Positions 20,127 through 39,112 of a stretch of 48,497 bases of DNA are shown in pieces. Source of the DNA: Natronohydrobacter sp. Its GTDB lineage: Bacteria; Pseudomonadota; Alphaproteobacteria; Rhodobacterales; Rhodobacteraceae. The notes under the pieces are model-generated. The model was not told the DNA's origin. It saw only the letters and a program-made list of their open reading frames with translations, and made no database searches. The stretch is from positions 1-48,497 of the forward strand of contig JAFIEM010000013.1 of NCBI GenBank assembly GCA_020832555.1, written 5' to 3'. Every line of letters starts with the position of its first letter. Within the stretch, counting starts at the first letter, position 1. Made by a program: the position numbers and the translations under genes.

Positions 20127-20137
20127 ATCAGTGCTCC

Positions 20138-20968: not shown

Positions 20969-20978
20969 GATCGCCTCC

Positions 20979-21845: not shown

Positions 21846-21858
21846 GGCACTGGCCTTT

Positions 21859-21885
21859 CATCGGGGCAAGCGGCGCTTGCCGATG
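21859..21885 (-). repeat. Imperfect hairpin at the head of the permease gene
   Basis: GGCAAGC (21865-21871) and GCTTGCC (21875-21881) pair around GGC. CATC and GATG extend the stem past a 2-nt bulge. It begins 13 bp before the permease start codon, so it could hold down translation initiation or block RNA decay coming from the 3' side. Function is inferred from position only. Confidence 0.4.
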
Positions 21886-21897
21886 TGGAGGGAAGTC

Positions 21898-21926
21898 GAG
21901 AGGGGCGCGAGGAGGACGCCCCTCTC
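21898..21926 (-). terminator. Hairpin after the polyol-binding-protein gene
   Basis: A perfect 10-bp inverted repeat (GAGAGGGGCG and CGCCCCTCTC) with a 9-nt loop starts 16 bp beyond the smoE stop codon. No T run follows. It is the second of three hairpins in this window placed directly after an importer binding-protein gene, and probably sets the ratio of binding protein to permease by partial termination or by protecting the upstream message. Confidence 0.6.
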
Positions 21927-21942
21927 CAAAGGCGGCAGGGGC

Positions 21943-23247: not shown

Positions 23248-23291
23248 CTGATTCCTCCCTGAACGATATGAGTAGCACAGACACTAGTAGA

Positions 23292-23338
23292 AATATTACC
23301 GCGCGGTCAACATAAATTTTACTCGCGCAAAATTTATG
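23292..23338. promoter_or_regulatory. Candidate LacI-family operators upstream of the polyol operon
   Basis: Two symmetric elements lie between the regulator and smoE. One has the self-complementary core ACCGCGCGGT inside AATATTACCGCGCGGTCA (23292-23309). The other has 10-bp perfect arms CATAAATTTT (23311-23320) and AAAATTTATG (23329-23338) around ACTCGCGC, and runs over the regulator stop codon. A CG-centred palindrome with AT-rich flanks is typical of LacI-family sites. A related sequence sits before the regulator gene at 24417-24440. The second could alternatively act as an mRNA hairpin. Confidence 0.5.
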
Positions 23339-24365: not shown

Positions 24366-24692
24366 CTGATCCCGCCCTTCACTTGTTGTCCGCATGGAGC
24401 TTGCGCTTATACAACAGTAATATTCTCGCGCGCAAAGTTTCAACCTGCTTGTGAAAGTTTACGTGGAGAGATTCAGGATACGATCACTGCTGCTCTCATC
24501 GGTGTCGCATCGAAGGGAGCCGCACCGCCGGGCAGACGAAGGAAAATTCTGCACTCTGTGCGGATGCCGCTATCGCATGGCGTGAAAGACCGTGATGGCG
24601 CACACCATCACAGTCTCACAGCAGTTCGGGTCTTGCATCTGCCCCGCTGCGCCTTCAGCCAGCAGCCCGGCCGAAACAAAGGCGTGGGTCGG
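24366..24692 (-). other. 327-bp gap between the E2 gene and the LacI regulator
   Basis: No gene is supported. The part near the regulator (24400-24470) is AT-rich and holds its promoter and the element GTAATATTCTCGCGCGCAAA (24417-24436), which resembles the smoE operators. On the E2 side, GTGATGG (24592-24598) and CCATCAC (24605-24611) form a 7-bp hairpin about 80 bp after the E2 stop, a weak candidate terminator. The rest shows nothing I can name. Confidence 0.4.
24417..24440. promoter_or_regulatory. Candidate autoregulatory operator of the LacI-type gene
   Basis: AATATTCTCGCGCGCAAAG shares AATATT, a C/G alternating centre and AAA-TTT flanks with the two elements upstream of smoE (TCGCGC then AAAATTT at 23324-23335). 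It lies 50-75 bp before the regulator start codon, the right place for self-repression. Confidence 0.4.
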
Positions 24693-25574
24693 TCAGATCA
24701 TCATAAAGCGGGGCGTTGCAATCAGCGTGACAAGCCGCGCCATGAAGCGCGCGGCATCGGCCCCGTTGATGACCCGATGATCATAGCTCAGATCCAGCGG
24801 CACCATTGGCACCGGACGTGGCGTGTCGCCCTCCCAAAGGGTCACGATCTCGGTGCGGGTGATGCCGAGGATGGCCAGTTCGGGCGGATTCACGATGGGG
24901 GTAAACCCGATGCCCCCGACCCCGCCCAGATTGCTGATCGTCATGGACGCGCCGCCCATCTCATCAGGCGCGATCTTGCGCGCCTGCGCCCGGCCTGCCA
25001 GATCGGAGATCTCGCGCGAGATTTCCCACAGCCCCTTGCGGTCGGCATCGCGGATCACCGGCACCATCAGCCCATGCGGCGTGTCCACGGCAATCCCGAT
25101 ATGAACATAGTCCTTCAGCACCAGCGACTTGCCATCGGCTGAGAGCGAGGCATTGAAGCGTGGAAATTCACGCAAGGTTCGCGCCAGCGCCATGACGTGA
25201 AACGCGAGCGCGGTCAGCCGGACGCCCTGCGCCGGTGCCTCGGCTTTCCATGCCTTGCGCAGCGCCTCTATCGCCGTCATGTCCGCGCGGTCATGATGCG
25301 TGACTTGCGGGATCAGTGTATTCGCCGCGCCGAGATTGCGCGCAGCCACCTGCGCGAAACGGCTCATCGGTTCTTGTGTGACCGACCCATAAGCGCCGTG
25401 ATCCACGTCCCAATAGCTCGTGTCACCCGCAGGGGCAGCGCTGGTGGGTCTGGCCACGACCAGATCCTCTGGACCAAGCGTAGTCCGCCCCAATTCGCGG
25501 GCGCGGGCATCCAGATCGACGCCCTTTTCCAGTGCCTTGCGGCGCGTGGTCGGGCTTGCGATGACGTCTGACAT
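24693..25574 (-). CDS. 2-oxoacid dehydrogenase E2 catalytic protein without lipoyl domain
   Basis: This 293-residue protein is an E2 acyltransferase stripped of its lipoyl domain. Residues 1-40 resemble a peripheral-subunit-binding domain (ARELGRTTLGPEDL). The rest is the trimer-forming catalytic domain, with SNLGGVGGIGFTPIVNPPELAILGI-type core and the active site DHRVINGAD (His266; Asn270 in the position that is Asp in many E2s but Asn in Azotobacter E2p). Without a lipoyl arm it cannot work alone. The protein at 27026-28303 has two lipoyl domains and a catalytic domain that has lost the DHR motif, so the two probably combine into one functional E2. It is the last gene of the cluster, 11 bp after the aldehyde dehydrogenase gene. 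No E3 gene is present in the window. Confidence 0.88.
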   Translation of the reverse strand: MSDVIASPTTRRKALEKGVDLDARARELGRTTLGPEDLVVARPTSAAPAGDTSYWDVDHGAYGSVTQEPMSRFAQVAARNLGAANTLIPQVTHHDRADMTAIEALRKAWKAEAPAQGVRLTALAFHVMALARTLREFPRFNASLSADGKSLVLKDYVHIGIAVDTPHGLMVPVIRDADRKGLWEISREISDLAGRAQARKIAPDEMGGASMTISNLGGVGGIGFTPIVNPPELAILGITRTEIVTLWEGDTPRPVPMVPLDLSYDHRVINGADAARFMARLVTLIATPRFMMI

Positions 25575-25585
25575 GGATAGCCCCC

Positions 25586-27010
25586 TTACCAGCTTGCCGA
25601 GATATATTGCGTTTCCATGAACTCAAGCATCCCTTCATGCCCGCCTTCACGCCCCAGCCCCGATTGCTTGGTGCCGCCGAAGGGCGCGGCAGGATCGCTG
25701 ACCAGCCCGCGATTAAGGCCGACCATCCCGTAATCGAGCCGTTCGCAGACCTGCAACCCGCGCTTGAAATCACCCGAAAAGACATAGGCCACCAGCCCGT
25801 ATTCCGTGTCATTGGCACGGGCGATCACATCCTCGGTGTCGCTGAAGGTCTGCAATGCCGCCACCGGGCCGAAGATTTCATCGCGCACGCAATCGGCAGT
25901 TTCCGGCACGTTCGACAGTACTGTGGGCGGGTAGAAATACCCCTTCCCCTCTGGCACCACACCACCGCATTCGACCTTCGCCCCCTTGGCAACGGCATCG
26001 GCCACGAACTCCGCCACCTTGTCGCGGGTCGCGGCATTGACCAGCGGGCCGACATCCACGCTCGGGTCGGCGCCGTCGCCGACCTTCAAACCCGACATGG
26101 CAGCCGTCAGGCGGCGGGTAAATTCGGGCGCGACCGCCTCATGCACATAGATGCGGTTCGCAGCCGTGCAGGCCTCGCCCAGATTGCGCATCTTGGCCAG
26201 CATCGTGCCCTCGATCGCCACATCCATATCCGCATCGTCGAACACGATCACCGGCGCATTGCCGCCCAGTTCCATCGCGGGTTTAAGCACCTGATCGGCA
26301 GCACCCTTCAGAAGCGTCCGCCCCACCCCGGTCGAGCCAGTGAAGCTGACCACCCGCACGCGCGGATCGTGCAGCATGTGATCGACCAGCGCCCCCGTGC
26401 GTTTCGAGGGCAGCACATTCACCAGCCCCGCCGGCACGCCGGCTTCCTCCAGCAGCGGCATCAGCGCGAGCATCGTCAGCGGCGTCTCTGACGCGGGCTT
26501 GATGATAACCGCGCAGCCCGCCGCGAGCGCAGGCGCGATCTTGCGCGTGCCCATCGCCGCCGGGTAATTCCAGGGCGTGATCAGCACCGCCAGCCCCGCA
26601 GGCTTGTGCTGCACGATGATCCGCGCACCGGAACTCGGCGCATGGGTGATCAGCCCGTCGGCGCGCACCGCTTCCTCGGCAAACCAGCGGAAGAATTCGG
26701 CGGCATAGGTCGCCTCGCCCATGGCATCGGCGCGCGCCTTGCCGTTCTCCAGCGTGATCAGATGCGCGAACTCTTCCAGCCGCGCGGTCATCAATTCCCA
26801 GGCCTTGCGCAGCACTTCCGAGCGCTGGCGCGGCGTGCGCGCGGCCCACTCAGTCATCGCGGCTTCAGCGGCATCGAGCGCTGCATCGGCATCCGCGATT
26901 CCGGCCGAAGCGACCGAGGCCAGAACCTCCTCCGTCGCCGGATTGATCACGTCGAAGCGCTCGGCCGTCTTGTGCCATGCGCCGTTGATGAAAAGATCGG
27001 TATGTTCCAT
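25586..27010 (-). CDS. NAD(P)-dependent aldehyde dehydrogenase (succinate-semialdehyde dehydrogenase-like)
   Basis: This 474-residue enzyme of the aldehyde dehydrogenase superfamily has all catalytic elements: Asn148 (TPWNYP), Lys171 (KPASETP), the FTGSTGVG cofactor loop, the general base Glu247 (ELGGNAP) and the nucleophile Cys281 (GEACTAANR). Sequence details such as FFRWFAEEA and PFGGTKQSGLGREGG resemble succinate-semialdehyde dehydrogenases. In this cluster, acetaldehyde released by an acetoin-type dehydrogenase, or another short aldehyde, is also a reasonable substrate. The gene sits between the two halves of the E2, 15 bp after the lipoyl gene, so it is expressed with the complex. Confidence 0.93.
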   Translation of the reverse strand: MEHTDLFINGAWHKTAERFDVINPATEEVLASVASAGIADADAALDAAEAAMTEWAARTPRQRSEVLRKAWELMTARLEEFAHLITLENGKARADAMGEATYAAEFFRWFAEEAVRADGLITHAPSSGARIIVQHKPAGLAVLITPWNYPAAMGTRKIAPALAAGCAVIIKPASETPLTMLALMPLLEEAGVPAGLVNVLPSKRTGALVDHMLHDPRVRVVSFTGSTGVGRTLLKGAADQVLKPAMELGGNAPVIVFDDADMDVAIEGTMLAKMRNLGEACTAANRIYVHEAVAPEFTRRLTAAMSGLKVGDGADPSVDVGPLVNAATRDKVAEFVADAVAKGAKVECGGVVPEGKGYFYPPTVLSNVPETADCVRDEIFGPVAALQTFSDTEDVIARANDTEYGLVAYVFSGDFKRGLQVCERLDYGMVGLNRGLVSDPAAPFGGTKQSGLGREGGHEGMLEFMETQYISASW

Positions 27011-27025
27011 GAAAACCTCGACGGG

Positions 27026-28303
27026 TTAAAGCAGGTGGCGCAGCGGGTCTTCCATGCGCCCTGCAAATTCGGAAAGAAGGACAATCGCGCGCTCAGGCGG
27101 CATCTGCCCGGCGCTGAATTCCAGCACCAGCGACAACCCCGCGCCGCGTTGCATCACAGTCAGGACCGGCACCTGTTCCACGCCCATGCTGACCGCCTGC
27201 ACGCGTGTCGTGCGCAGATCGCGCAGCACCAGATCCGGGGCGCTCTCGGTCTCGGTCACATCTGACAGCCTGCGCCCGGCAGGCACGCTGAAGACCCGCC
27301 GCGCCGGGATGCGCTCCACGGCAATGCAGCAGGGCGCCCCGAAACTGGCCCCGGCAAGCCCGGCCAGCAGCGCATCGGCATCTGCCAGCCCCGCTGTCTT
27401 TGCTGCCCAATCCGCGAAGGCTGCAAAATCGCTCGTGGCAATCCCGGCCTCCAGCCGCAACGATGCAACCGACGCGACGCCAGTGCTCGCAACAGGGCGT
27501 GCGCCAAGCGCCTTGAGCGTTTCCAGATCCCGCATATGATAGGGTTGCGGATGGCCCGCTGCGACCAACTGGCCCAGATCCAGCCCTTGCTCTAGCGCAA
27601 CCCGGCGCAGCTTGGGCGAGGCGAGGATGCGCCCCCCGACCGGGGCCGCAGCCTTCGGCGCAGGCGCAGGCTGCGCCGCCTTGTCAGTGCGCGCCACAGG
27701 CTCTGGCGCGGGTTTTGGCGCAGGCGCAGATGCTTGCGCCCGCATCCCCTGCGCCACCGGGCTTTCGGGCTTCTCTGCCGAGATCACCGCCACAGCCTGC
27801 CCCACCGGCACTTCATCGCCCTTCCGCGCCAAGGTCGCGGCCAGCCAGCCGCGCGCCCCGGCAGGCACTTCCATCGTGGCCTTGTCGGTTTCGACCTCGA
27901 ACAGCGGATCGTCGGGGCCGACCTGCGCGCCCAGTTCGACCAGCCAGCCGACCAGCACGCCGCTGTCCTGCGCCATGCCCAATTGCGGCATGGTGATCTC
28001 GCGCCCCTCGGGCAGCGCATCCGCAGCCTGCGGGGCGGGCGCCGCAGCAGGCGCGTCCTCCTCGGCACTCTCGGAAATGCGCGCAATAGCCTGCCCGACC
28101 GGCACATCCTCACCGGCCTGCGCTGTCACATGCGTCAGAAACCCGCTCGCCTGCGCCTCGACCTCCATCGTGGCCTTGTCGGTCTCGACCTCGAAGAGCG
28201 CATCGCCCTTGGCTACCTTGTCGCCCGGCGCTTTCAGCCAGGACACGATCTTGCCTGCGTCCTGTGCCATGCCAAGCTGCGGCATCGTCACGTCATGCGG
28301 CAT
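27026..28303 (-). CDS. Double-lipoyl E2-like subunit with degenerate catalytic domain
   Basis: This 425-residue protein has two tandem lipoyl domains, 1-78 and about 102-176. Each has the lipoylation motif ETDKATMEV (Lys43 and Lys141). An Ala/Pro-rich linker follows, then a peripheral-subunit-binding domain (about 226-263, ILASPKLRRVALEQGLDLGQ) and a C-terminal region of E2 catalytic size. The active-site DHRxxxG motif is absent there; the equivalent end reads LVLEFSAGQMPPERA. It therefore looks like a lipoyl carrier and scaffold, with acyl transfer left to the separate catalytic protein at 24693-25574. It overlaps the E1-beta gene by 11 bp. The two lipoyl domains are very alike, pointing to internal duplication. 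Confidence 0.9.
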   Translation of the reverse strand: MPHDVTMPQLGMAQDAGKIVSWLKAPGDKVAKGDALFEVETDKATMEVEAQASGFLTHVTAQAGEDVPVGQAIARISESAEEDAPAAAPAPQAADALPEGREITMPQLGMAQDSGVLVGWLVELGAQVGPDDPLFEVETDKATMEVPAGARGWLAATLARKGDEVPVGQAVAVISAEKPESPVAQGMRAQASAPAPKPAPEPVARTDKAAQPAPAPKAAAPVGGRILASPKLRRVALEQGLDLGQLVAAGHPQPYHMRDLETLKALGARPVASTGVASVASLRLEAGIATSDFAAFADWAAKTAGLADADALLAGLAGASFGAPCCIAVERIPARRVFSVPAGRRLSDVTETESAPDLVLRDLRTTRVQAVSMGVEQVPVLTVMQRGAGLSLVLEFSAGQMPPERAIVLLSEFAGRMEDPLRHLL

Positions 28304-29288
28304 GGATCAGCTCCCCAGCACACAATCGGCGCGCATTGGCGGCCACTTGCTCCGGCGTCGGCACCGTCAGATCCTCCAGCGCAGGCGAGAAGGGCACCGG
28401 CACATCCATCGCCCCCATCCGCAGCACCGGCGCGTCCAGATGATAGAAGGCCTTTTCATTCAGCCGCGAGGCAATCTCCGCCGTCACCCCGTAACTCTGA
28501 TGGCCCTCGTCGATGACAATCGCGCGGCTGGTTTTCTTCACGCTCTCGATCAGTGTTTTCTCATCCAGAGGCACGATCGTGCGCGGGTCGATCACTTCAG
28601 CGCTGATCCCCTCGGCAGCCAGAATCTCCGCCGCCTTCTCCGCCACCTGCACCATCGACGATGTGCCGATCAGGGTAATATCGCGTCCCTCGCGCTTCAC
28701 ATTGGCCACGCCGAAGGGGATCAGATATTCCTCCTCCGGCACGGGCGCCTTGTCCTGATACATCAGCTTGTCTTCAAAGATCACCACCGGGTTGTTGTCG
28801 CGGATGGCGGTCTTCATCAGCCCCTTGGCCTCATAGGAAGAAGAGGGCATCGCGACCTTCAGCCCCGGTATATGCGCGACCAGCGCCTGCAACGACTGGC
28901 TGTGCTGCGCGGCAGACCGGCGAGTGGCCCCCATATTGGTGCGCAGCACCAGCGGCACGGTCAGCTTGCCGCCCGACATGTAATGCGTCTTGGCCGCCTG
29001 GTTGCAAAGCTGGTCCATGATCAGGAAGATGAAATCCCCGAACATCAGATCCACGATGGGCCGCGCCCCGGTCATCGCCGCCCCCACCGCCATGCCCATG
29101 AAACCCGGCTCGGAAATCGGCGTGTCGATCACGCGCTCGGTGCCGAATTCCTCGACCAGCCCCGAGAGCACCTTGAAGGGCGTGCCCGCCTCAGCCACAT
29201 CCTCGCCCATCAGGAACACCGACGGGTCGCGCCGCATTTCCTCGGCGATGGCCTCATTCACGGCCTGCGATAACGTTATCTCGCGCAT
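28293..29288 (-). CDS. 2-oxoacid (acetoin/pyruvate-type) dehydrogenase E1 component, beta subunit
   Basis: This 331-residue subunit pairs with the alpha subunit encoded just upstream to form the thiamine-diphosphate-dependent E1. It begins MREITLSQAVNEAIAEEMRR and has FLMGEDVAEAGTPFKV, the FIFLIMDQLCNQAAK region, and the C-terminal transketolase-like domain with EVIDPRTIVPLDEKTLIESV. This arrangement is shared by acetoin dehydrogenase (AcoB), pyruvate dehydrogenase and branched-chain E1 beta. GAGGAGG precedes the ATG at 29288. Given the neighbouring SDR and aldehyde dehydrogenase, acetoin cleavage is a fair guess, but the substrate is not proven by sequence. Confidence 0.93.
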   Translation of the reverse strand: MREITLSQAVNEAIAEEMRRDPSVFLMGEDVAEAGTPFKVLSGLVEEFGTERVIDTPISEPGFMGMAVGAAMTGARPIVDLMFGDFIFLIMDQLCNQAAKTHYMSGGKLTVPLVLRTNMGATRRSAAQHSQSLQALVAHIPGLKVAMPSSSYEAKGLMKTAIRDNNPVVIFEDKLMYQDKAPVPEEEYLIPFGVANVKREGRDITLIGTSSMVQVAEKAAEILAAEGISAEVIDPRTIVPLDEKTLIESVKKTSRAIVIDEGHQSYGVTAEIASRLNEKAFYHLDAPVLRMGAMDVPVPFSPALEDLTVPTPEQVAANARRLCAGELIHAA

Positions 29289-29300
29289 TCTGGGTCCTCC

Positions 29301-30278
29301 TCAGGCCGCGTAAACATGCATGTCGACTTCCGCCGCATCGGGATAGGCGGCGTCGAGCGCATAGGCGACGGCCTCTGCGGCATCCTTCTCGATCTCCGCG
29401 TTCAGCGCATCGAGGTCCGCTTCCGTCGCGATCCCCTCACGCACCAGATGCGCCCGGAAGCGGATGATCGGATCGCGGTTGTCTTTCCACTCCTTTTCCT
29501 CAGCCTTGGAGCGGTAATATTCGCGGTTGATATCGCCCACATGGTGGCCGTGATAGCGATACGTCATCAACTCGATGAAGAACGGCCCCTCGCCCTTGCG
29601 CGCCCGCGCGACCAGCTTGCGCGCCAGATCGTTGACCTCCAGCACATCCTGGCCATCCACCTGATGCGCTTCGATCCCGAAGGCTTCAGCGCGGGCGGTG
29701 ATCGAACCTGCGGCGATTTCCTCGGTCTTCGTATATTCCGAATAGCCATTGTTCTCGCAGGCATAGATGACCGGCAGCTTCCAGAGCGCGGCCATGTTCA
29801 TCACCTCATACAGCAGCCCCTGCGCAGTCGCGCCATCGCCGAAGAAGCACACGGTCACATCATCCGAGCCCTGCAACTTCGCGCGCAGCGCCGATCCGGT
29901 CGCAATGCCCATCGACCCGCCCACAATGGCATTGGCCCCAAGATTGCCGTGGCTCTGATCCGCAATATGCATCGACCCGCCCTTGCCCCGGCAATAGCCC
30001 TCGGCCTTGCCCAGCAACTCGCAGAACATCGCCTTGAACTCGGCCCCCTTGGCCACGCAATGCCCATGGCCCCGATGGGTCGAGGTGATCCGGTCCGCAT
30101 CTGTCAGCGCCTCGCAGATCCCCACGGCGACCGCTTCCTCGCCGGAATACATATGCGTGAGGCCCGGCATCTTGGCCGACAGGTACAGCTGGTTCGCGTT
30201 GTCCTCAAAAGTACGGATGCGCACCATCTGGGTGTACATGCGCAGGTAATCTTCCGTGTTCGATTTGGCCTTGGCCAT
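29301..30278 (-). CDS. 2-oxoacid (acetoin/pyruvate-type) dehydrogenase E1 component, alpha subunit
   Basis: From ATG 30278, with AAAGGAAA upstream, the product has 325 residues (MAKAKSNTEDYLRMYTQM). Longer frames start within the palindromic repeat and lack a ribosome binding site. The thiamine-diphosphate motif runs from FFGDGATAQG to CENNGYSEYT, and the conserved TYRYHGHHVGD loop follows. It is the partner of the beta subunit 12 bp downstream. The size and the HRGHGHCVAKGA region fit AcoA or PdhA alike. A palindromic repeat pair (30300-30352) separates it from the M24 gene upstream, so it may have its own promoter or rely on read-through. Confidence 0.93.
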   Translation of the reverse strand: MAKAKSNTEDYLRMYTQMVRIRTFEDNANQLYLSAKMPGLTHMYSGEEAVAVGICEALTDADRITSTHRGHGHCVAKGAEFKAMFCELLGKAEGYCRGKGGSMHIADQSHGNLGANAIVGGSMGIATGSALRAKLQGSDDVTVCFFGDGATAQGLLYEVMNMAALWKLPVIYACENNGYSEYTKTEEIAAGSITARAEAFGIEAHQVDGQDVLEVNDLARKLVARARKGEGPFFIELMTYRYHGHHVGDINREYYRSKAEEKEWKDNRDPIIRFRAHLVREGIATEADLDALNAEIEKDAAEAVAYALDAAYPDAAEVDMHVYAA

Positions 30279-30299
30279 GATGGTTTCCTTTGCAGGGAC

Positions 30300-30352
30300 G
30301 GTGCGTGCAAGCACGCACCCTACCGCGCGGTAGGGTGCGTGATTCACGCACC
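30300..30352. repeat. Paired REP-like palindromes (two copies head to head)
   Basis: Two versions of the element GTAGGGTGCGTG-n-CACGCACC lie back to back between the M24 gene and the E1-alpha gene. The first (30300-30325) reads GGTGCGTGCAAGCACGCACC and the second (30331-30352) GGGTGCGTGATTCACGCACC, joined by the palindrome TACCGCGCGGTA. A further copy is at 31664-31689 on the other side of the M24 gene. Dispersed palindromes of this type are common between genes in proteobacteria and may stabilise mRNA ends or bind gyrase or IHF. Confidence 0.7.
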
Positions 30353-30353
30353 C

Positions 30354-31652
30354 TCAGTAACGGTTCGCAATCGGCAGTTCCTCGGCCGGGAACAGGCTGA
30401 TCACCTCGCAGCCCGTCTCGGTCACGACCACCTCTTCCTCGATCCTCGCCGCCGAATAGCCATCCGCCGCCGGGCAATAGGTCTCAAGCGCAAAGACCAT
30501 CCCTGTCTTGATCTCCATCGGATGATCGAGGCTGATCGCGCGGCTGATGATGGGTCGCTCATGCAGCGCCAGCCCCAGACCATGCCCGAATTGCAGACCG
30601 AAGGCCGATTGCTCATCGGGAAAGCCGAATTCCTCGGCCTTGGGCCAGACCTCGGCCACCTTGTCAGTGCTCACGCCGGGTTTGATCATCGCAATCGACG
30701 CATCGATCCATTCGCGCGCCTTCACATAGGCATCGTTCTGCGCAGGTGTCGCGCGGCCGATATTGAAGGTCCGGTAGTAGCATGTCCGATAGCCCTGATA
30801 GCTTTGCAGGATGTCGAAGAACGCCTGATCACCGGGGCGGAAATAGCGGTCGGTGAAATTATGCGGATGCGGGTTGCAGCGCTCGCCCGAAATGGCGTTG
30901 ATCGCCTCCACATCATCCGAGCCCATCTCGTAGAGCATCTTGTTCGACAGCGCCACGATGTCATTCTCGCGGATGCCCGGCTTCAGGTTCTCGTAGATCA
31001 TGTGATAGACGCCATCGACCATCGAGGCCGCCTGCGTCAGAAGCTGGATCTCGTCCCAGTTCTTGATCTCGCGCGCGGCCAGCATGATCTGCTGCCCATC
31101 GACGACATTCAGCCCCTCTTCCTTCAACGCATGGAACATCGCCGTTTCGGCGTAATCCACCCCCACCGGCATGTCCCCCATGCCCGCATCGCGGATCAGA
31201 CCCGCGATTTCCTTCGCGTATTTCCGCATCAATCCGAATTCGGGCGGGATTGTCCCGCGCATCCCCACCACACCGGCGCGGCAATGATCCGGCACCAGCC
31301 AGTCCGAGAATTTCTTGTGATGCATCGCCGCAGAGCCGAAATCCCAGACATAGGGCGCATCATCGCCGGTCAGCAGGCAGAAGCGGCACATCTTGTCGCG
31401 CTCCCACTCGCCGATCTTGGTGGCACTGACATAGCGGATGTTGTTCACATCAAAAAGCAGCAGCGTGCCCGCATCCGAGGCCTGCAAGGCCTGCCGCGTG
31501 CGCGCCAGCCGGTAGCGGCGCAGCCGGTCATGGTCGATCCGGCGCTCGAAATCGACCGAGGTATGGCCCCAGGCGGGCAATCGCCCCTCCCAGCGCCAGT
31601 TGGGTTCCAGATCCTGCGGGCTCAGCAGGTTCGGCATCAAGGCTCGTGACAT
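30354..31652 (-). CDS. M24 (creatinase/prolidase fold) family protein with altered metal site
   Basis: From ATG 31652, with GGAG 8 nt upstream, the product is 432 residues: an N-terminal creatinase-type domain (about 35-180) and a C-terminal pita-bread domain. M24 metallopeptidases use Asp, Asp, His, Glu and Glu. Here the series reads Asp280 (FFDILQ), Cys291 in GYRTCYYRTF where Asp is expected, His357 (FGHGLGLALHERP), Glu390 (ALETYCP) and Glu405 (RIEEEVVV). The metal site is therefore changed or absent, as in creatinase, which works without metal. The fold also includes the DMSP lyase DddP, but that enzyme keeps its Asp ligands, so I do not call DddP. The gene is flanked on both sides by REP-like repeats and lies between an SDR and the E1-alpha gene. 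Confidence 0.85.
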   Translation of the reverse strand: MSRALMPNLLSPQDLEPNWRWEGRLPAWGHTSVDFERRIDHDRLRRYRLARTRQALQASDAGTLLLFDVNNIRYVSATKIGEWERDKMCRFCLLTGDDAPYVWDFGSAAMHHKKFSDWLVPDHCRAGVVGMRGTIPPEFGLMRKYAKEIAGLIRDAGMGDMPVGVDYAETAMFHALKEEGLNVVDGQQIMLAAREIKNWDEIQLLTQAASMVDGVYHMIYENLKPGIRENDIVALSNKMLYEMGSDDVEAINAISGERCNPHPHNFTDRYFRPGDQAFFDILQSYQGYRTCYYRTFNIGRATPAQNDAYVKAREWIDASIAMIKPGVSTDKVAEVWPKAEEFGFPDEQSAFGLQFGHGLGLALHERPIISRAISLDHPMEIKTGMVFALETYCPAADGYSAARIEEEVVVTETGCEVISLFPAEELPIANRY

Positions 31653-31663
31653 GAGAATACTCC

Positions 31664-31689
31664 GTAGGGTGCGTGCTTGCACGCACCGC
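31664..31689. repeat. REP-like palindrome, third copy
   Basis: GTAGGGTGCGTGCTTGCACGCACC matches the element at 30300-30352 in inverted orientation, with the same 9-bp arms GGTGCGTGC/GCACGCACC. It lies in the 73-bp gap before the M24 gene and ends 12 bp from its start codon, so the M24 ribosome binding site is next to the repeat. Confidence 0.7.
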
Positions 31690-31725
31690 TTGTGTGAGGA
31701 TTGAAAAGGGGAAGAAGGCGCGGCG

Positions 31726-32532
31726 TTACTGGATGCACCAGCCGCCATCGATATGGATCATCTGACCCGTCATGTAGTCACTGTCGGAACTGCACAGGAA
31801 GGCGGCTGTGCCCTTCACATCCTCCGGATAGGAGACGCGCTTGATCTGCAACGCATCGCGCACGATGTCGTCATAAGCCTGACCCTCGCGGTCCTTGAAG
31901 CCGATCTCGACCAGATCCTTGTCAAGCTGTTCCCAGAGCGGTGTCACCACCACACCGGGCGCATAGCCGTTCACAGTGATCCCGTGTTCCGCCAGCCCCA
32001 CTGCGCCGCAATGCGTCAGCGCCAGACAGCCGTATTTCGAGGTGCAATAGACCGTCACATCCACCAGCGGCTTGCGCGAGGCAATGGAACCCACATTGAT
32101 CAGCTTGTAGGGATAGTCCTGCTTGCCCTGCGCGATCATCTGGCGCGCGGTTTCCTGCATGCCCAGCCACATCGCCTTGGTGTTGACGGTCATGATCATG
32201 TCCCAGTTGTCTTCATCAATATCCATGAAGAACCGGGGCTTGTTCAGGCCCGCGTTGAACAGGCCGACATTGATCATGCCGAAAGCCTCGACCGTCGCCG
32301 CGACGGCTGCGGCATTGTCCGCGCGCTGCGTGACATCCATACGCACAGCAACCGCGCGGCCATTGCCTCTGGCGTTGATCTTTTCGGCAAGCTCCTGTGC
32401 CGCATCCAGATCCAGATCGCCAAGGCACACATTGGCCCCCAGCGCCGCGAAATGCTCGGCATTGCAAGCTCCCATCCCGCGCGCGGCTCCGGTGATCAGA
32501 ATATTCTTGCCTTTCAGGCGGGTGGTGTCCAT
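31726..32532 (-). CDS. Short-chain dehydrogenase/reductase
   Basis: This 268-residue classical SDR has cofactor loop TGAARGMG (14-21), an acidic residue after strand 2 (GDLDLD) favouring NAD, the NAG motif, Ser in NVGSIAS and catalytic YxxxK in VYCTSKYG. An insertion rich in charged residues (WEQLDKDLVEIGFKDREGQAYDD) sits in the substrate-binding loop, as in acetoin/diacetyl reductases and some polyol dehydrogenases. GGAGGA precedes ATG 32532. It is the first gene of the group that continues with the M24 protein and the E1/E2 complex, and could supply the keto substrate for that complex by oxidising a diol or sugar alcohol; this is inference. Confidence 0.9.
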   Translation of the reverse strand: MDTTRLKGKNILITGAARGMGACNAEHFAALGANVCLGDLDLDAAQELAEKINARGNGRAVAVRMDVTQRADNAAAVAATVEAFGMINVGLFNAGLNKPRFFMDIDEDNWDMIMTVNTKAMWLGMQETARQMIAQGKQDYPYKLINVGSIASRKPLVDVTVYCTSKYGCLALTHCGAVGLAEHGITVNGYAPGVVVTPLWEQLDKDLVEIGFKDREGQAYDDIVRDALQIKRVSYPEDVKGTAAFLCSSDSDYMTGQMIHIDGGWCIQ

Positions 32533-32555: not shown

Positions 32556-34367
32556 TTATGTCAACGCGGCTTCTGCCCGTGACTGGGCGCGCCGCAGGGC
32601 ATCGCGGGGGGATTGCACCCCGCGCAGCATGTCGTGAATTTCCTGACCGCAGATCTCGAAAATCTGGGTGATCTGCGGGATCGGCGGGCGGGGCCAGTAT
32701 TGCAATTCATCACGCAGCGACATGGCATCCACGGCCTCGAAGATGGGCGAGATGGCGCGCACTTCGGGATCGGCCCCGACCGAGTAGCGCGGTGCCGTGC
32801 GGCTGCCATTCAGCACATAGAGCTTCTGTGCCTGCGGCGATGTGAAAGCGATCAGCGCTTCAGCCGCCGCCGCGCGCCGCTCGGGCGCGAGATTGGCAGG
32901 GATGCCCAGCACATAGCCGCCAACCGGCGCGAGCGGGCTTCCCTCGGGGCCCGCGGGATGAGGCAGATAGCCGGTATTTCCATTCGCCGGAGAATTCGGA
33001 TCGCGCTCGAAATAGGGGGCGAGAAGCGTGTAGCCATAGGCCATCGCGATCTTGCCCGCCGCATAGGGGCGCACGCGCTCATACCAGGACATCGACAGGA
33101 TGTCGGGTGGGGAATATTCCAGCAACTCCAGCAGATAGTCGCAGGCCGCGCGCGCAAGCGGCGTGTCGATGGTCGGAACGATGTCGCGGCGCTTGGCTGT
33201 GTCGGCGGCAAATCCACCCGCAATCGGGTCCAGATTGACGATAGGCTGGCCGAAATCGGCGCAGGTCATCAGAAACTGATGCCCGAGCGCCGTGCCGCGC
33301 GCCGCATTCCAGGCGATGCCGTAGCGCCCGCGCTGCGGATCATGGAAATGGCGCGCGGCCTCGATCAGACGGTCGGTCGTGTCGGGCGGCTCCAGCCCTT
33401 CCTCGGCAAAAAGATCCTTGCGATAGAACAGCAGCTCAGGCGTGGTCTGGCCGGGCACACCATAGGACCGCCCGCCCCAATGCGCCGCCATCCATCCGGC
33501 AGTGTGAAAATCGGGCGGGTCCAGCCGGTCTGTATCCAGACATTCATCCAGCGCCATCAACACACCTTTCTCGGCAAATTCACCGATCCAGGGCAGGTCG
33601 ACCGCAATAATGTCGTATTTGCTGAAACGCCGCTCGGCGTTGCGCAACGCCTCGCTGCGCAACCGGTCAATCGAAAACGCGCGCTGGCTGATATTCGTGC
33701 CGATGATCTGCTCGAATTGCCGCTTGAGGTTTTCCATCACCATGAAGGTCGGATCGCCATGCACCAGAACCCGCAGCCCACCCGCGATCTGCAAGGGTTG
33801 TGGCAGGACTTGAGGCGGGGCAATGGACTGGCTGGCAGGCAGATAGGAAGCGCCGTAGTAATATTCGCGCTCGTTGATCGTGGCGCTGCTCATGGCCTCG
33901 GCCCCGAGACGAATGATCCGGTCCGAAAACTGACGCCAGTTCGCCATCAGCCGATCCGTCGGATGAAGCGAGAAGGATCTTCCCGAGCGGGTTCTCACCC
34001 GCTGTTCGACAAGCCCGCTCTCCAGAAGGCGCTGCAATTTTCGGCGCGCTGTCGCATAGGGCACGTCGGATGCGGAAATCAGCATCGTCGCCGTGACGAC
34101 CTTCCCGCCCAGATGCGCACGCAGAAGCGCGAGGATCATGTTCAGATAGGGATTTGGCTCTGCGATTTCGAGCGCGGTGTCGAGTTCGGTCGTGACAGAT
34201 TCGAGAAAAGCCAGCGCCGCAGGCAATGCCGACTGCTCGGCGAGGCCAGCATGTTGACTGCCTGCTGACACCCGAGAGAAATCTTCCTTTTGGACATTTC
34301 CCATACGCACTTTGCTTTTCTTTCCTTGATTGGCGGGTCTCGACCCGTTCCGGGGTTGCATTGCCAT
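32556..34367 (-). CDS. Winged-helix DNA-binding domain fused to a family 1 solute-binding domain
   Basis: This 603-residue protein starts at ATG 34367 (AGGAGG 7 nt upstream). Residues 1-70 are basic and then partly helical, without a signal peptide or membrane segment. Residues about 72-138 form a winged helix (MLISASDVPYATARRKLQRL, ESGLVEQRVRTRSGRSFSL). From about 196 to 585 the protein is a MalE/UgpB-type solute-binding domain (LRVLVHGDPTFMVMENLKRQ, YGVPGQTTPELLFYRKDLF, PYAAGKIAMAYGYTLLAPYF, AAAEALIAFTSPQAQKLYVL). An ABC binding protein has thus become the cytoplasmic sensor of a one-component regulator. LacI proteins do this with the ribose-binding fold, but the family 1 fold is rarely seen in this role. 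It is transcribed away from a ribose-type ABC transporter over a repeat-rich 208-bp region, and probably controls it. A few bases separate it from the SDR downstream. Confidence 0.88.
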   Translation of the reverse strand: MAMQPRNGSRPANQGKKSKVRMGNVQKEDFSRVSAGSQHAGLAEQSALPAALAFLESVTTELDTALEIAEPNPYLNMILALLRAHLGGKVVTATMLISASDVPYATARRKLQRLLESGLVEQRVRTRSGRSFSLHPTDRLMANWRQFSDRIIRLGAEAMSSATINEREYYYGASYLPASQSIAPPQVLPQPLQIAGGLRVLVHGDPTFMVMENLKRQFEQIIGTNISQRAFSIDRLRSEALRNAERRFSKYDIIAVDLPWIGEFAEKGVLMALDECLDTDRLDPPDFHTAGWMAAHWGGRSYGVPGQTTPELLFYRKDLFAEEGLEPPDTTDRLIEAARHFHDPQRGRYGIAWNAARGTALGHQFLMTCADFGQPIVNLDPIAGGFAADTAKRRDIVPTIDTPLARAACDYLLELLEYSPPDILSMSWYERVRPYAAGKIAMAYGYTLLAPYFERDPNSPANGNTGYLPHPAGPEGSPLAPVGGYVLGIPANLAPERRAAAAEALIAFTSPQAQKLYVLNGSRTAPRYSVGADPEVRAISPIFEAVDAMSLRDELQYWPRPPIPQITQIFEICGQEIHDMLRGVQSPRDALRRAQSRAEAALT

Positions 34368-34383: not shown

Positions 34384-34462
34384 GATGTTCAAAACTGACA
34401 CCGGATCATACCTGCGAAATATCCATTCTGAACATCCAGATATCCGAAATGAACAAATATCC
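34384..34462. promoter_or_regulatory. Repeat-rich divergent operator region
   Basis: The shared promoter has the direct repeats ATATCCATTCTGAACA (34419-34434) and ATATCCGAAATGAACA (34440-34455), 21 bp apart (two helical turns). A third ATATCC follows at 34457-34462. GATGTTCA (34384-34391) is the exact inverse of TGAACATC (34429-34436). The TGAACA and ATATCC units are the likely recognition elements of the winged-helix/solute-binding regulator; spacing on one face of the helix suits cooperative binding. Confidence 0.55.
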
Positions 34463-34575
34463 GGTATTGTCTCGGTGTCCGGGCGGCAAAGATATACGGG
34501 CTGAGACACATGCCGACGGGACGGATTTCTTCCCGGATGGCAGGGCCTACAGGTTAATCCAACGGGAGGACGACC

Positions 34576-35517
34576 ATGACCAAGACAATGAAACTTCTGC
34601 TTGCCAGTTGCGGCACATTTGCGCTGGTGGGCGCGGCGGCAGCCGACACGGTGCGTATCGGGATCACGCAGAACAATGTCGGCATCGACAGCTATCAGAC
34701 CACCTATGAACAGGCCTTCATCGCGGCTGCCGAGGCCAATCCCGATGTCGAGGTGATCGTTCTGGATGCAGGCGGCGACGTGGCCCGCCAGATCAGCCAG
34801 ATGCAGGATCTGATCCAGCAGCGCGTGGATGCCATCATCATCTGGCCGACCGATGGTCAGGCGCTGGTGCCCGCCGTGCGCAATGCCCATCGCGAGGGGA
34901 TCCCGGTCGTCGTGACCAATTCGAACATCGCCGAAGCCGGGATGGAGTTCATCGCCGCGTTTTCCGGGCCGAACAATATCCAGCAGGGCATCTATTCCGC
35001 CGAGATGATGTGTGATGCACTGGGCGGCGAAGGCCAGATTGTGCAGATCACCGGCATGCCAGGCTATACCACCGCAATTGAGCGCCAACGCGGCTTTGAC
35101 GAGCGGCTGGCCGAACTCTGCCCTGGTGTCACGCAACTGGATATCCAGCCCGGCGACTGGAACCGCGAGCGCGCTCAGCGCACGATGGAAACACTTCTCA
35201 CCCGTTTCGACCAGATCGATGGCGTCTATTCCGGCGATGACAATATGGGTGTCGGCGCGTTGAACGCGGCACTGGCCGCTGGCCGCGCCGAAGGTATGGT
35301 CTTTATTGGGGCGACCAATTTCGCGGTAGGTTACGATGCGATGGGGCGCGGCGAATACTGGGGATCGGTTTACCAGTCCCCGGTCGATGATGCCCGCGCG
35401 GCCCTGCAGACCGCATTGGATGTGCTGGCTGGCGAGGACGTGCCGAAGCTGAACTACTTCGACACGCCCAAGATCACGCAAGAGAACATGCACGAGTTCG
35501 ACCGTCCGGTTTTCTGA
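34576..35517 (+). CDS. Ribose-type (family 2) sugar-binding periplasmic protein
   Basis: This 313-residue binding protein of the RbsB/xylose class has a signal peptide of about 23 residues (MTKTMKLLLASCGTFALVGA, cleavage after AAA). A LASC sequence at 9-12 resembles a lipobox, but the hydrophobic run before it is too short, so ordinary Sec export is more likely. The mature part has the typical fold: VRIGITQNNVGIDSYQTTYE, LDAGGDVARQISQMQDLI, DAIIIWPTDGQALVPAV and VYSGDDNMGVGAL. GGGAGGAC precedes ATG 34576. It feeds the two permeases and the ATPase downstream. The sugar is unknown. A strong hairpin follows the stop codon. Confidence 0.93.
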   Translation: MTKTMKLLLASCGTFALVGAAAADTVRIGITQNNVGIDSYQTTYEQAFIAAAEANPDVEVIVLDAGGDVARQISQMQDLIQQRVDAIIIWPTDGQALVPAVRNAHREGIPVVVTNSNIAEAGMEFIAAFSGPNNIQQGIYSAEMMCDALGGEGQIVQITGMPGYTTAIERQRGFDERLAELCPGVTQLDIQPGDWNRERAQRTMETLLTRFDQIDGVYSGDDNMGVGALNAALAAGRAEGMVFIGATNFAVGYDAMGRGEYWGSVYQSPVDDARAALQTALDVLAGEDVPKLNYFDTPKITQENMHEFDRPVF

Positions 35518-35628: not shown

Positions 35629-36603
35629 ATGCTGATGACCCGCCTCAAGGCCGGGGGCCCTGCGATTGCCAAGCAGGGCATACTTGTCGCCTTTATCGTT
35701 TTCATGATCGCGTTTTCGCTGATGTCCGACAGGTTCCTCTCGGCTGACAACATCATGTCGGTCTTCCGGCAATCCGCGATCATCGGGGTCATGGCGATTG
35801 GCGCCACCATTGTCGTGATCGGGGGCAATCTGGACCTGTCAGTGGGCTCGATGCTCTCATTCGCAACCGTGCTGGTGGTCGATCTGCATGACAAGATCGG
35901 CCCGGAACTGGCGATCCCGGTGATGGTGCTGGCAACGCTCTGCCTTGGCGCGATCAACGGCTTTCTGATCGGCATCCTGCGGCTCAATTCCCTGATTGTC
36001 ACGCTGGGCATGCTCTCGGCCATTCAGGGGCTTGTGCTGATCTATAGCGGCGGGCAGAATGTCGATATCGTCGACCAGCGCGGCACATGGTTCGCGATCT
36101 TCGGGCGCGGCGCGGTGTTCGGCATCGCTACGCCCATCATCATCTTCGGCACGCTGGCGCTTATCTTCCATATCATCATGACCACCATGCCCTTCGGGCG
36201 GCGCGTCCATGCGGTTGGCGGCAATCCCACAGCCTCGGTCTTTTCCGGCATTCCCCGCTCGCGCGTCGTGTTCATGACCTACCTGATCTCCGCGCTCTGC
36301 GTCGCCATTGCCGCAATCATCCTTGGCAGTCGGGTCATGGGCTCGCAAAACAATGTGGGCCAGGGCTATGAGCTTCAGGTGCTGGCAGCGGTCATCCTCG
36401 GCGGCACCTCGCTTCTGGGCGGTTCGGGCAGCATCCTGCGCACCGTTCTGGGCGTGCTGATGCTGGCCTTCATCCAGAACGGCCTGATCCTGATGGGCCA
36501 GCCCTATTACACGCAATGGCTGGTGACATGGGTCGTGATCATCGTCGCAGTCTGGCTGGACGTGGCCGCCAAGCGTGGCCGCCTGTTCTCGCCCATAGCA
36601 TGA
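35629..36603 (+). CDS. Ribose-type ABC transporter permease (RbsC-like), first copy
   Basis: This 324-residue permease of the CUT2/branched-chain type has about nine hydrophobic segments. Family landmarks are IGATIVVIGGNLDLSVGSML (the substrate-channel motif), LGAINGFLIGILRLNSLIVTLGML, and GYELQVLAAVILGGTSLLGG near residue 245-265. GGGAGGAA lies 7 nt before ATG 35629. With the second permease it presumably forms a heterodimeric channel; most CUT2 systems have a single permease gene used twice, so a two-permease version is a small distinction. Translation of the next gene starts at the stop of this one. Confidence 0.93.
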   Translation: MLMTRLKAGGPAIAKQGILVAFIVFMIAFSLMSDRFLSADNIMSVFRQSAIIGVMAIGATIVVIGGNLDLSVGSMLSFATVLVVDLHDKIGPELAIPVMVLATLCLGAINGFLIGILRLNSLIVTLGMLSAIQGLVLIYSGGQNVDIVDQRGTWFAIFGRGAVFGIATPIIIFGTLALIFHIIMTTMPFGRRVHAVGGNPTASVFSGIPRSRVVFMTYLISALCVAIAAIILGSRVMGSQNNVGQGYELQVLAAVILGGTSLLGGSGSILRTVLGVLMLAFIQNGLILMGQPYYTQWLVTWVVIIVAVWLDVAAKRGRLFSPIA

Positions 36604-36611
36604 GGTCCGCA

Positions 36612-37601
36612 ATGGCATATTTCTATCAGAACCCCGCCCTGCGCTGGCTGATGCGCAACCCGATCTGGGGCTTCGTGCTGATCGTGTTCATCTTCTTCAG
36701 CCTGGCCTCGGACCATTTCTTCGATGCCCGCAATTTCCAGAACATCCTTGTCCAGACCTCGACCATCGGGCTGATCGCTCTCGGCATGACGCTGGTCATG
36801 ATCAACGGCAATATCGACCTCTCGGTGGGGGCGACGCTCGCTCTGGCCGCAGCCTTCGCCGTCGATGTGCAAAGTTGGGCCATGTTCACCACATGGGGCA
36901 ACTGGCAGATTCTGCCTGCGGTCTGCCTGGCGCTCTTGGTGGGCATCGCAATGGGCGCGATCAACGGCTTCATCGTCTGGAAAACCGGCGTCGATGCCTT
37001 CATCGTCACGCTGGGCGCGATGCTGGGCATCCGCGGGCTGGTCTTTGTCTATACCGGCGAGCAATCCTTCTACGCGATGAATTTCGCCTATTCGGATTTC
37101 AGCGCATTGTCCGTAGGCCCTCTGCCCGTTCTTGCCGTGATCTTCCTGCTCTGCGTGCTGGCCGTCCATTGGCTTCTGTCGCGCACCGTGCATGGGCGTA
37201 ACACCTATGCCGTGGGTGGCAATCGCGAGGCGGCGGTCAATGCCGGCATCCGCGTCGGCCCGCATATGATGATCAATTTCATGATCATCGGATTTCTGGC
37301 CGCGCTCTCAGGCGTGCTGCTCTCCACCCAGATGGGGGCCGCCACGCCTAATCTGGGGCGCGACTATGAACTCTGGGTGATCACCGCAGTCGTCCTCGGC
37401 GGCACAAAGCTCACGGGCGGCAAGGGCGATATCATCGGCACGCTGGGTGGCGTTCTGGCCATCGGCATCCTGCGCAATGGCATGAACCTGATGCAGGTGC
37501 CCGCATTCTATGTCTATGTCATCCTTGGCAGCATCCTGATCGCTGTCCTCTTCCTCGACAAACGCTTCAACGCCTCGACTGACGGAGGGCTGCGCCTATG
37601 A
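36612..37601 (+). CDS. Ribose-type ABC transporter permease (RbsC-like), second copy
   Basis: This 329-residue permease is related to the preceding one. Matching motifs include LGMTLVMINGNIDLSVGATL, GAINGFIVWKTGVDAFIVTLGAML and DYELWVITAVVLGGTKLTGG. I take ATG 36612 because GAGG, partly formed by the previous stop codon, is 7 nt upstream. An ATG at 36600 is in frame but overlaps the preceding gene without a ribosome binding site. It overlaps the ATPase gene by 4 bp (ATGA). The pair probably arose by duplication and now forms the two halves of the channel. Confidence 0.93.
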   Translation: MAYFYQNPALRWLMRNPIWGFVLIVFIFFSLASDHFFDARNFQNILVQTSTIGLIALGMTLVMINGNIDLSVGATLALAAAFAVDVQSWAMFTTWGNWQILPAVCLALLVGIAMGAINGFIVWKTGVDAFIVTLGAMLGIRGLVFVYTGEQSFYAMNFAYSDFSALSVGPLPVLAVIFLLCVLAVHWLLSRTVHGRNTYAVGGNREAAVNAGIRVGPHMMINFMIIGFLAALSGVLLSTQMGAATPNLGRDYELWVITAVVLGGTKLTGGKGDIIGTLGGVLAIGILRNGMNLMQVPAFYVYVILGSILIAVLFLDKRFNASTDGGLRL

Positions 37602-39112
37602 ATGACCCACGCGAACCCGCGCTGCGCCTGCAAGGCATCGTCAAGACCTTTCCCGGTGTGCGCGCCCTTGATGGTGTGGATTTCGAGGTCATGCCGGGCG
37701 AAGTCCATGCGCTGCTGGGCGAAAACGGAGCCGGGAAATCCACGCTGATGAAAGTGCTTGCCGGCATGTATCAGCCTGATGAAGGCCAGATCATCATTGC
37801 AGGCCAGCCCGTGCGCATGACCACACCGATCGAGGCCAAGGCGCAGGGCGTCGTCCTGATCCATCAGGAGCTGAGTCTTGTTCCGGAAATGTCGGCTGCC
37901 GAAAATATCTATCTGGGGGAATTGCCGCGCAGATCACTGGGTCGGGTGGACTGGAAAACGCTCGAAGAGCGCTCGAACGCGATCCTGACACGGCTGAAAT
38001 GCAAGTTCCGCGCCGAAGTGACTGTCGCGCATCTGTCCATTGCCAATCAGCAAATGGTCGAAATCGCCCGCGCACTCACGGTCGATGCGCGGGTGGTGGT
38101 GTTCGATGAACCCACCGCCTCGCTGACCGATGCCGAAAAGGTGGTGCTCTTCGACATCATCAATGATCTCAAGGCGCAGGGCGTCGGGATCGTCTATATC
38201 TCGCACCGCATGGACGAGATCTTTACCCTCTCGGACCGGATTACCGTTTTGCGCGATGGCGCCTATCGCGGAACCCTGACCACGGCAGAAACGAACGAGG
38301 ACGAAGTGACCCGACTGATGATCGGGCGCAGTCTGGATCTGTCGCGCAACGAGGCCCCGCGCGACTTCGGCAAGACCATGCTCGAAGTGCAGAAACTGAC
38401 CTGTCCCGGCCTGTTCGAGGATGTCAGCTTCTCCGTGCGGGCCGGAGAGGTCGTGGGCTTTTACGGACTTGTCGGTGCGGGCAGGACCGAGATCGCCGAA
38501 ACCCTCTTCGGGTTGCGCGTGCCGGACTCTGGGGAAATCCGTATCGATGGGGAACCCGTCGCGATTTCATCCCCACGCGACGCCATCGCGCATGGCATCT
38601 CGCTGGTGCCCGAAAACCGCAAGGAACAGGGGCTCGTGCTGCAGATGACCTGCCGGGACAACATGACCCTGCCACAGGTGCAGAACCTGACAACCGGTCC
38701 CTTCGTGTCACAAAGCGCAGAGCTTGCGATTTTCGATCAGTATCGGGACAAGCTGGCCATCAAGACGCCGAGCTGGCGCCAATCCGCAGGGGTTCTGTCG
38801 GGCGGCAATCAGCAGAAGATCGTCATCGGCAAATGGCTGTCCATGCAGCCGCGCGTCCTGATCGTGGATGAGCCCACGCGCGGGATTGATGTCGGCTCGA
38901 AATCCGAGATTCATCAACTGTTGCGGGATCTGGCGGCGCAGGGTTACGCGGTCATCGTCATCAGCTCGGAAATGCCCGAGGTCTTGCGCGTCTCTGACCG
39001 GATCGTGGCCATGTATCACGGGCGGATCATGCGCGAATTCACGATAGACGAAGTGACCGAGGATTCGCTGGTGCAGGCCATTTCCGGCATCAAGACCACC
39101 GAAGCGGCCTGA
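37598..39112 (+). CDS. Ribose-type ABC transporter double ATPase (RbsA-like)
   Basis: This 504-residue ATPase has two fused ABC domains. Domain 1 has Walker A GENGAGKST (41-49), LSIANQQMVEIARAL in place of a strict signature, and Walker B VVVFDEPTASL. Domain 2 (from about 250) has a degenerate Walker A, GLVGAGRTE, as usual for RbsA/MglA proteins, LSGGNQQK, and LIVDEPTRGIDVGSK. The protein powers the two permeases encoded just before it. The transcription unit ends here; the next gene is convergent, 33 bp away, with no obvious terminator between them. Confidence 0.94.
   Translation: MNDPREPALRLQGIVKTFPGVRALDGVDFEVMPGEVHALLGENGAGKSTLMKVLAGMYQPDEGQIIIAGQPVRMTTPIEAKAQGVVLIHQELSLVPEMSAAENIYLGELPRRSLGRVDWKTLEERSNAILTRLKCKFRAEVTVAHLSIANQQMVEIARALTVDARVVVFDEPTASLTDAEKVVLFDIINDLKAQGVGIVYISHRMDEIFTLSDRITVLRDGAYRGTLTTAETNEDEVTRLMIGRSLDLSRNEAPRDFGKTMLEVQKLTCPGLFEDVSFSVRAGEVVGFYGLVGAGRTEIAETLFGLRVPDSGEIRIDGEPVAISSPRDAIAHGISLVPENRKEQGLVLQMTCRDNMTLPQVQNLTTGPFVSQSAELAIFDQYRDKLAIKTPSWRQSAGVLSGGNQQKIVIGKWLSMQPRVLIVDEPTRGIDVGSKSEIHQLLRDLAAQGYAVIVISSEMPEVLRVSDRIVAMYHGRIMREFTIDEVTEDSLVQAISGIKTTEAA

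Follow-up and report, generated by a model that had tools for sequence, protein, structure and literature searches.

In a 48,497-nucleotide stretch of Natronohydrobacter sp. DNA, the whole of which is termed the window here, we identify the gene of what is most probably (we put the probability at about 0.8) a cytoplasmic one-component regulator, in which a MarR-type winged helix is joined to a MalE-type domain that stems from the capture of an exported CUT1 binding protein. The architecture of the regulator, the conservation of that architecture, the conserved gene neighbourhood and the tandem operators were computed directly; the tandem 15-bp palindromes, lying 21 bp apart in the divergent intergenic region, are new here. 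On balance, we favour the view that such regulators form an undescribed, widespread alphaproteobacterial family, which arose when a MarR-type winged helix and a CUT1 binding protein were fused in one event and then spread, controlling a variety of catabolic clusters, and uptake that is mostly of the ribose type (CUT2), through tandem, 21-bp-spaced operators bound as a pair of dimers, and whose members have been filed as exported binding proteins.

Architecture of the regulator

The regulator gene and its two halves occupy the following positions.

32556–34367, minus strand: regulator gene, with a MarR-type winged helix (residues ~73–158) and an SBP_bac_1 sensor (~198–602), and with no apparent signal peptide
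33894–34151, minus strand: winged-helix domain and long helix, residues 73–158 (AlphaFold; Foldseek matches to MarR proteins; conserved recognition helix and wing)
32559–33776, minus strand: MalE-type (SBP_bac_1) sensor, residues ~198–603 (Pfam, PDB sequence matches, Foldseek)

The frame begins with ATG and encodes 603 residues without interruption. A first-pass annotation of this DNA had described a single frame with a winged helix followed by a binding domain, and the reading frame, Pfam, AlphaFold and Foldseek all agree with that description. AlphaFold modelling of the full-length protein, with an alignment of 54 members as input (the window protein and 53 full-length orthologues, 60–84% identical to it), gave a mean pLDDT of 78.5 and a pTM of 0.71; residues 1–47 are disordered in this model, and a weak linker lies between the helix at 138–158 and the SBP fold, which starts at 198. 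Structure prediction of both halves, proposed earlier as a check, returned a winged helix and a complete MalE-type fold. The binding domain, previously placed at residues 196–585, is present, but its C-terminal limit lies at about 602 and not at 585. All structure models of the regulator are of monomers only. In many relatives, similarity to the regulator begins at about residue 46–52. The source genome holds a single copy of the regulator, together with two weak matches elsewhere (E 4.4e-11 and 3.1e-8), both to the sensor half only.

In the full-length AlphaFold model, the winged-helix half consists of helices at residues 73–86, 93–99 and 104–116, a wing formed by strands 120–124 and 132–136, and a helix at 138–158, with a conserved recognition helix (consensus GVPYATA) and a conserved wing (consensus RPRTxSGKSF). 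Residues 46–165 modelled alone reached a pLDDT of 88.4, and the best Foldseek matches to the winged-helix model in the PDB were MarR proteins, namely MexR (E 1.1e-4), PcaV, HcaR and MarR, with moderate TM scores by query of 0.42–0.67 among the 50 PDB chains listed. The modelled half appears to be of MarR type, being a winged-helix fold with flanking helices. The expectation that a profile search would detect a winged helix within residues 72–138 was borne out in part: matches were found at residues 78–130 of the window protein alone (HTH_IclR, E 0.0011; MarR_2, E 0.0048), but all were weak and under the Pfam curated cut-offs, MarR_2 scoring 17.5 bits against a cut-off of 27, which leaves the protein outside Pfam MarR/MarR_2. 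Among the 54 aligned members, MarR_2 was matched in 38 (E ≤ 0.1; best E 3e-5), and a winged-helix profile searched against PDB sequences retrieved no chain below E 0.16.

Origin of the sensor half

The C-terminal half matches SBP_bac_1 (PF01547) in Pfam at residues 250–515, with E 2.9e-24 and 87.1 bits (cut-off 26), which places it in that family, and the domain was matched in all 54 aligned members (E ≤ 0.1). Its best Foldseek match in the PDB is 5iai (Arad_9887; E 4.5e-27, TM 0.89 on the target, 24% identity in the structure alignment), a structure reportedly determined with ribitol. Among exported proteins, the nearest to the sensor is encoded at locus L113 (genome G014); it is 41% identical, has a signal peptide by eye and is adjoined by CUT1 permease and ATPase genes.

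A tree built from 59 domains of sensors and binding proteins placed all 49 regulators to one side of a single branch (88/76; 90% of 200 bootstrap trees), with L113 beside the regulator group (97/98); at 88/76, the branch separating the regulators from L113 is not fully supported, and the placement of the root is tentative because several outgroup rows are very long. Used as a query against 295 genomes (E ≤ 1e-40, with the best five candidates at most scored per genome), L113 retrieved, besides itself, regulators at 30–43% identity and two exported proteins at 28–29%. Across the 49 regulators and L113, 44 columns are at least 90% conserved, and L113 carries the common residue in 39 of them. The tree and this nearest exported relative, encoded beside CUT1 genes, support the earlier proposal that an exported family-1 binding protein had been captured; for the accompanying guess at the ligand, an oligosaccharide or a glycerol-phosphate-like compound, nothing was found in support.

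A conserved uptake and breakdown cluster

Searches returned 118 relatives of the regulator, the best 80 of which, at 60–89% identity, were retained; they belong to Rhodobacterales and to several genera of Hyphomicrobiales. The genes around the regulator, with their occurrence in these 80 loci where counted, are as follows.

31726–32532, minus strand: SDR dehydrogenase, next gene in the regulator operon (Pfam; 80/80 loci)
30354–31748, minus strand: M24 family (creatinase/DddP-like) protein (77/80 loci)
29301–30347, minus strand: E1-alpha of a 2-oxoacid/acetoin-type dehydrogenase (64/80 loci)
28293–29288, minus strand: E1-beta (61/80 loci)
27026–28303, minus strand: lipoyl part of a split E2, carrying two lipoyl domains
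25586–27010, minus strand: aldehyde dehydrogenase (57/80 loci)
24693–25574, minus strand: E2 catalytic domain, 2-oxoacid_dh (52/80 loci)
34576–35517, plus strand: ribose-type periplasmic binding protein (RbsB), divergent (79/80 loci)
35629–36603, plus strand: ribose-type permease 1
36516–37601, plus strand: ribose-type permease 2
37598–39112, plus strand: ribose-type ATPase

At L060, the one locus without the divergent RbsB gene, the sequence begins 432 bp ahead of the match to the regulator. Judged by distance in a crude way, the contig leaves room for RbsB in 80 loci, SDR in 80, M24 in 74, E1-alpha in 70, E1-beta in 67, aldehyde dehydrogenase in 62 and E2 in 60, and contig ends account for some of the missing cluster genes. 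The regulator probably controls a nutrient-uptake and breakdown cluster that is common to many marine bacteria.

Several features of the cluster were observed in passing. The E2 is split between the lipoyl protein (27026–28303, minus strand), which has no catalytic domain match, and the catalytic gene (24693–25574, minus strand), with the aldehyde dehydrogenase gene between them, an arrangement that recurs in many loci. The M24 protein (30354–31748), strongly conserved alongside the regulator (median 88%), matches the DMSP lyase DddP only weakly, scoring 121.9 bits where the cut-off is 600. By eye, one of the aspartates that bind metal in M24 peptidases looks replaced in it, given which the protein may not be a peptidase. 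Many relatives (among L021–L080 listed) carry an extra SDR gene between the RbsB and RbsC genes, which the window lacks.

Tandem operators in the divergent intergenic region

Predicted regulatory elements between the regulator and RbsB genes are listed below.

34420–34434, no strand: operator 2 (predicted), 15-bp palindrome TGTTCAGAATGGATA (regulator orientation), overlapping the predicted −35 of the regulator promoter
34441–34455, no strand: operator 1 (predicted), 15-bp palindrome TGTTCATTTCGGATA, 21 bp from operator 2
34386–34400, no strand: third, weaker putative site TGTCAGTTTTGAACA, 34 bp from operator 2
34405–34432, minus strand: regulator-operon promoter (predicted, sigma-70 type), TTCAGA-16-TATGAT, with the −10 position conserved across an alignment of 95 regions
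34488–34493, plus strand: putative −10 of the transporter promoter, AAAGAT, with A2 and T6 conserved in 81–82% of 95 regions

The palindrome was spotted by inspection of divergent regions, and its matrix was refined on the 104 distinct regions that were left of 115 once exact duplicates had been removed, yielding the motif TNTYCAnnnTGRANA; the two best sites lie exactly 21 bp apart in 91 of the 104 regions, which come from related species, so that these counts are not independent. Because this first motif had been seeded by eye and trained on the very regions that were counted, we ran a de novo control, in which the training of a matrix began at random, used no more than 17 close regions, and was followed by a test on 87 held-out regions. 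The control recovered the motif TGTTCAAAATGAACA; of the 87 held-out regions, 81 contain a site and 62 a 21-bp pair, and the rest of the DNA of these held-out loci, 992,796 bp, contains 136 single sites and not one 21-bp pair. An independent repeat search of the window returned a 16-nt direct repeat at a spacing of 21. The third site (score of at least 3, offset 34) was present in 42 of 77 regions. The palindromic form of the sites suggests that the regulator binds as dimers.

The alignment of 95 regions shows conserved positions resembling a −10 on both sides: T (93%) and A (74%) towards the regulator, and the equivalents of T6 (81%) and A2 (82%) towards the transporter. The predicted −35 of the regulator promoter lies inside operator 2, which suggests autorepression, the regulator repressing its own operon; the sites lie upstream of the transporter core promoter, so that either sign of regulation is possible there. 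Judged from the DNA, the tandem operators and the conserved neighbourhood together support the earlier claim that the regulator controls the divergent ribose-type transporter.

Additionally, we scanned the DNA upstream of 39 of 41 distant members, leaving out an orthologue and a member with too short a stretch. A score of at least 12 was reached in 13 of the 39, where shuffles lead one to expect 0.22, and a score of at least 8 in 20 (2.42 expected); near-perfect palindromes stand upstream of the regulators in three 1.4-Mb genomes (L191–L193). A strong site, scoring at least 12, is absent upstream of 26 of the 39. All 11 members of a hydroxyquinol-type subfamily, in which the recognition helix differs, score below 8, as do eight other distant members, certain of which lie inside an operon and not behind a promoter.

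Gene neighbourhoods of distant members

At 37 distant regulator loci (25–53% identical), we used separate queries for the regulator-side SDR and for the extra SDR beside RbsB. The window-type SDR (55–68%) is kept in eight of the 37 (L120–L123 and L191–L194), accompanied in six of these by M24 (55–88%), and all eight have a different ribose-type transporter (RbsA 35–38%, RbsC 25–29%). The reverse case, a window-type transporter (64–76%) without the window-type SDR, was found in two of the 37, L119 (with M24) and L140; another M24 (51%) occurs at L138. The remaining distant subfamilies adjoin ribose-type transporters, Gfo/Idh, isomerase or hydroxyquinol-pathway genes, with L124 and L143 beside CUT1 genes and L141 beside both CUT1 and ribose-type genes. 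As to whether the sensor follows the transporter across distant loci, the picture is mixed; with eight loci against two, the regulator follows the catabolic core more often than it follows one transporter. The ligand of the sensor is likely to be a substrate or an early intermediate of that catabolic core.

In L191–L193, which are 1.4-Mb low-GC alphaproteobacterial genomes, the regulator lies between two ribose-type transporter clusters, one of which is followed by SDR and M24.

Proposed mechanism

One regulator dimer would sit on each 15-bp palindrome, and the two dimers, spaced by 21 bp (two turns), would share one side of the double helix between the divergent promoters. Operator 2 would cover the −35 of the regulator promoter and the weaker third site its expected start, the regulator repressing its own operon of SDR, M24, E1, E2 and aldehyde dehydrogenase genes. 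Both operators would stand upstream of the putative −10 of the transporter, at about −52 and about −73 from the expected start, where their effect may be activation or repression. Substrate would enter via the ribose-type transporter, the binding domain would close on the small substrate or an early pathway intermediate, and this closure would alter DNA binding, inducing the cluster.

Cellular location and alternative explanations

Public annotation implies a protein of another kind, since among 10 annotated regulator records nine are named 'extracellular solute-binding protein' and one 'hypothetical protein'; the nearest solved relatives are also exported proteins, as would suit a binding protein that is exported or held in the membrane and merely has an atypical N-terminus. 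However, no signal-like stretch or membrane helix was seen in the regulator, either in the AlphaFold N-terminus or in a hydropathy scan, and the model shows neither the export signal nor the lipoprotein anchor of an ABC extracellular solute-binding protein; the most hydrophobic 19-residue stretch (79–97) lies inside the winged helix. As the scan discriminates poorly between exported and cytoplasmic proteins, certain true signal peptides scoring no higher, the argument relies on the N-terminal fold, which is predicted to be disordered over residues 1–47 and then to form the MarR-type winged helix, in keeping with the earlier claim that the protein has no signal peptide. Exported relatives from the same searches do show N-terminal signal-like stretches by eye, and we regard export of the regulator as scarcely credible.

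The SBP half could also have ceased to be a ligand sensor and now serve only for dimerisation or for docking to another protein, such as the transporter ATPase, so that the regulator would respond to transport activity. The action of MalK on MalT is a precedent for an ATPase of a transporter controlling a regulator, and the strong conservation of the SBP half is compatible with any strong constraint; yet the sharing of 39 of the 44 conserved columns with exported L113, together with the eight of 37 distant loci that keep the window-type SDR beside a different ribose-type transporter (two of 37 for the reverse), makes such a role unlikely. Alternatively, the tandem palindromes might belong to another regulator, this protein controlling something else, as the assignment of the operators draws on position and conservation only. 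The motif, however, also precedes distant homologues whose neighbourhoods are different and is missing from the 11 members with a different recognition helix, and at the one annotated orthologous locus examined, on a Phaeobacter plasmid, no further regulator is annotated between the bounding ThuA and lpdA genes, which together render this quite improbable. A cytoplasmic, ligand-sensing regulator acting at the tandem sites is the reading that we prefer.

Comparison with known systems

The closest precedent for the design is SgrR/DsvR of enterobacteria and Vibrio, for which PMC13060122 describes an N-terminal HTH with an SBP_bac_5 domain, similar to the regulator in joining an N-terminal HTH to a large ABC solute-binding domain, and reports negative autoregulation for SgrR. 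The two differ in their binding domains, SBP_bac_5 there and SBP_bac_1 here, as well as in their neighbourhoods, and neither SgrR_N nor SBP_bac_5 matched the regulator in Pfam at E ≤ 1, which sets it outside the SgrR family.

MarR proteins are small, sense within the dimer and use palindromic operators between divergent genes; the regulator resembles them in its predicted winged-helix fold with flanking helices and in the palindromic sites between divergent genes, but carries a 400-residue binding-protein sensor, and its sequence scores under the curated cut-off. LacI/GalR proteins likewise employ a binding-protein fold as a cytoplasmic ligand sensor, although theirs is the smaller ribose-type fold with a different HTH, whereas the regulator has a MalE-type fold and a MarR-type winged helix; no LacI HTH or Peripla_BP match was found in Pfam at E ≤ 1, so it does not belong to LacI/GalR. 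The sensor fold is common to the regulator, L113 and 5iai, but the latter two lack a DNA-binding domain, and L113 has, by eye, its signal peptide. A literature search, mostly outside subscription journals, found no paper on a regulator that combines an HTH with SBP_bac_1; there may be other fusions of this kind, such as those with GntR domains in Firmicutes.

Distribution of the family and its implications

A survey of genome neighbourhoods for the same architecture, suggested in the first-pass annotation, revealed a large family and not a one-off, comprising the 80 loci and the distant members. At E ≤ 1e-30, the regulator was matched in 53 of 295 genomes of the same taxonomic family and in 9 of 385 genomes of a class-wide sample, the source genome counted, figures that take in a few exported relatives matching the sensor half only. 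In 36 plasmid records, one place covers at least 80% of the query, at identities down to 25% and less; not all of these are regulators, that of Rhizobium NXC24 (24.5%) resembling an exported binding protein that adjoins CUT1 genes. Records of Skermanella, Agrobacterium, Sinorhizobium, Aminobacter, Rhizobium, Shinella, Loktanella and Paraburkholderia yielded distant members of full length, as did the three 1.4-Mb genomes.

If these readings are true, many genes of marine and plant-associated bacteria now named 'extracellular solute-binding protein' encode intracellular regulators, and transporter inventories would have to be recounted. The family would be a clear example of how a large binding protein, normally exported, can be recruited for sensing in the cytoplasm, as well as a possible framework for metabolite biosensors, and its conserved operator a direct route to reading its regulons. 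Through the link to the SDR/M24/E1 pathway, ligand screening on the sensor would be a route to the substrate of that pathway.

Other features of the window

The CUT1 transporter at 19122–23247 was considered as a partner of the sensor and rejected, as it has its own, separate LacI gene (23334–24443) and is not conserved with the cluster. Within ~18 kb downstream of 12 orthologues, SDR and M24 were each found in 12 of 12, and the CUT1 binding protein and first permease of the window in none of 12; a 32% match to the second CUT1 permease lies at the far end of the ~18-kb stretch in L199. The CUT1 permease was found in none of the 80 loci, which end ~8 kb downstream, short of the CUT1 genes. Matches to UgpC (66/80) and SBP1 (10/80) were left out of the comparison because these queries can also match RbsA and the regulator's own sensor. 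The CUT1 genes form part of a separate polyol-type operon (16224–24443, minus strand), with the LacI regulator, the CUT1 transporter, an SDR, a mannitol dehydrogenase and a kinase-like gene, and this operon is not conserved with the cluster in the 12 orthologous stretches.

A 777-codon open frame at 29316–31649 (plus strand), antisense to the E1 and M24 genes, is probably a high-GC artefact. A gene of the trimethylamine methyltransferase (MTTB) family lies at 12633–14192 (plus strand).
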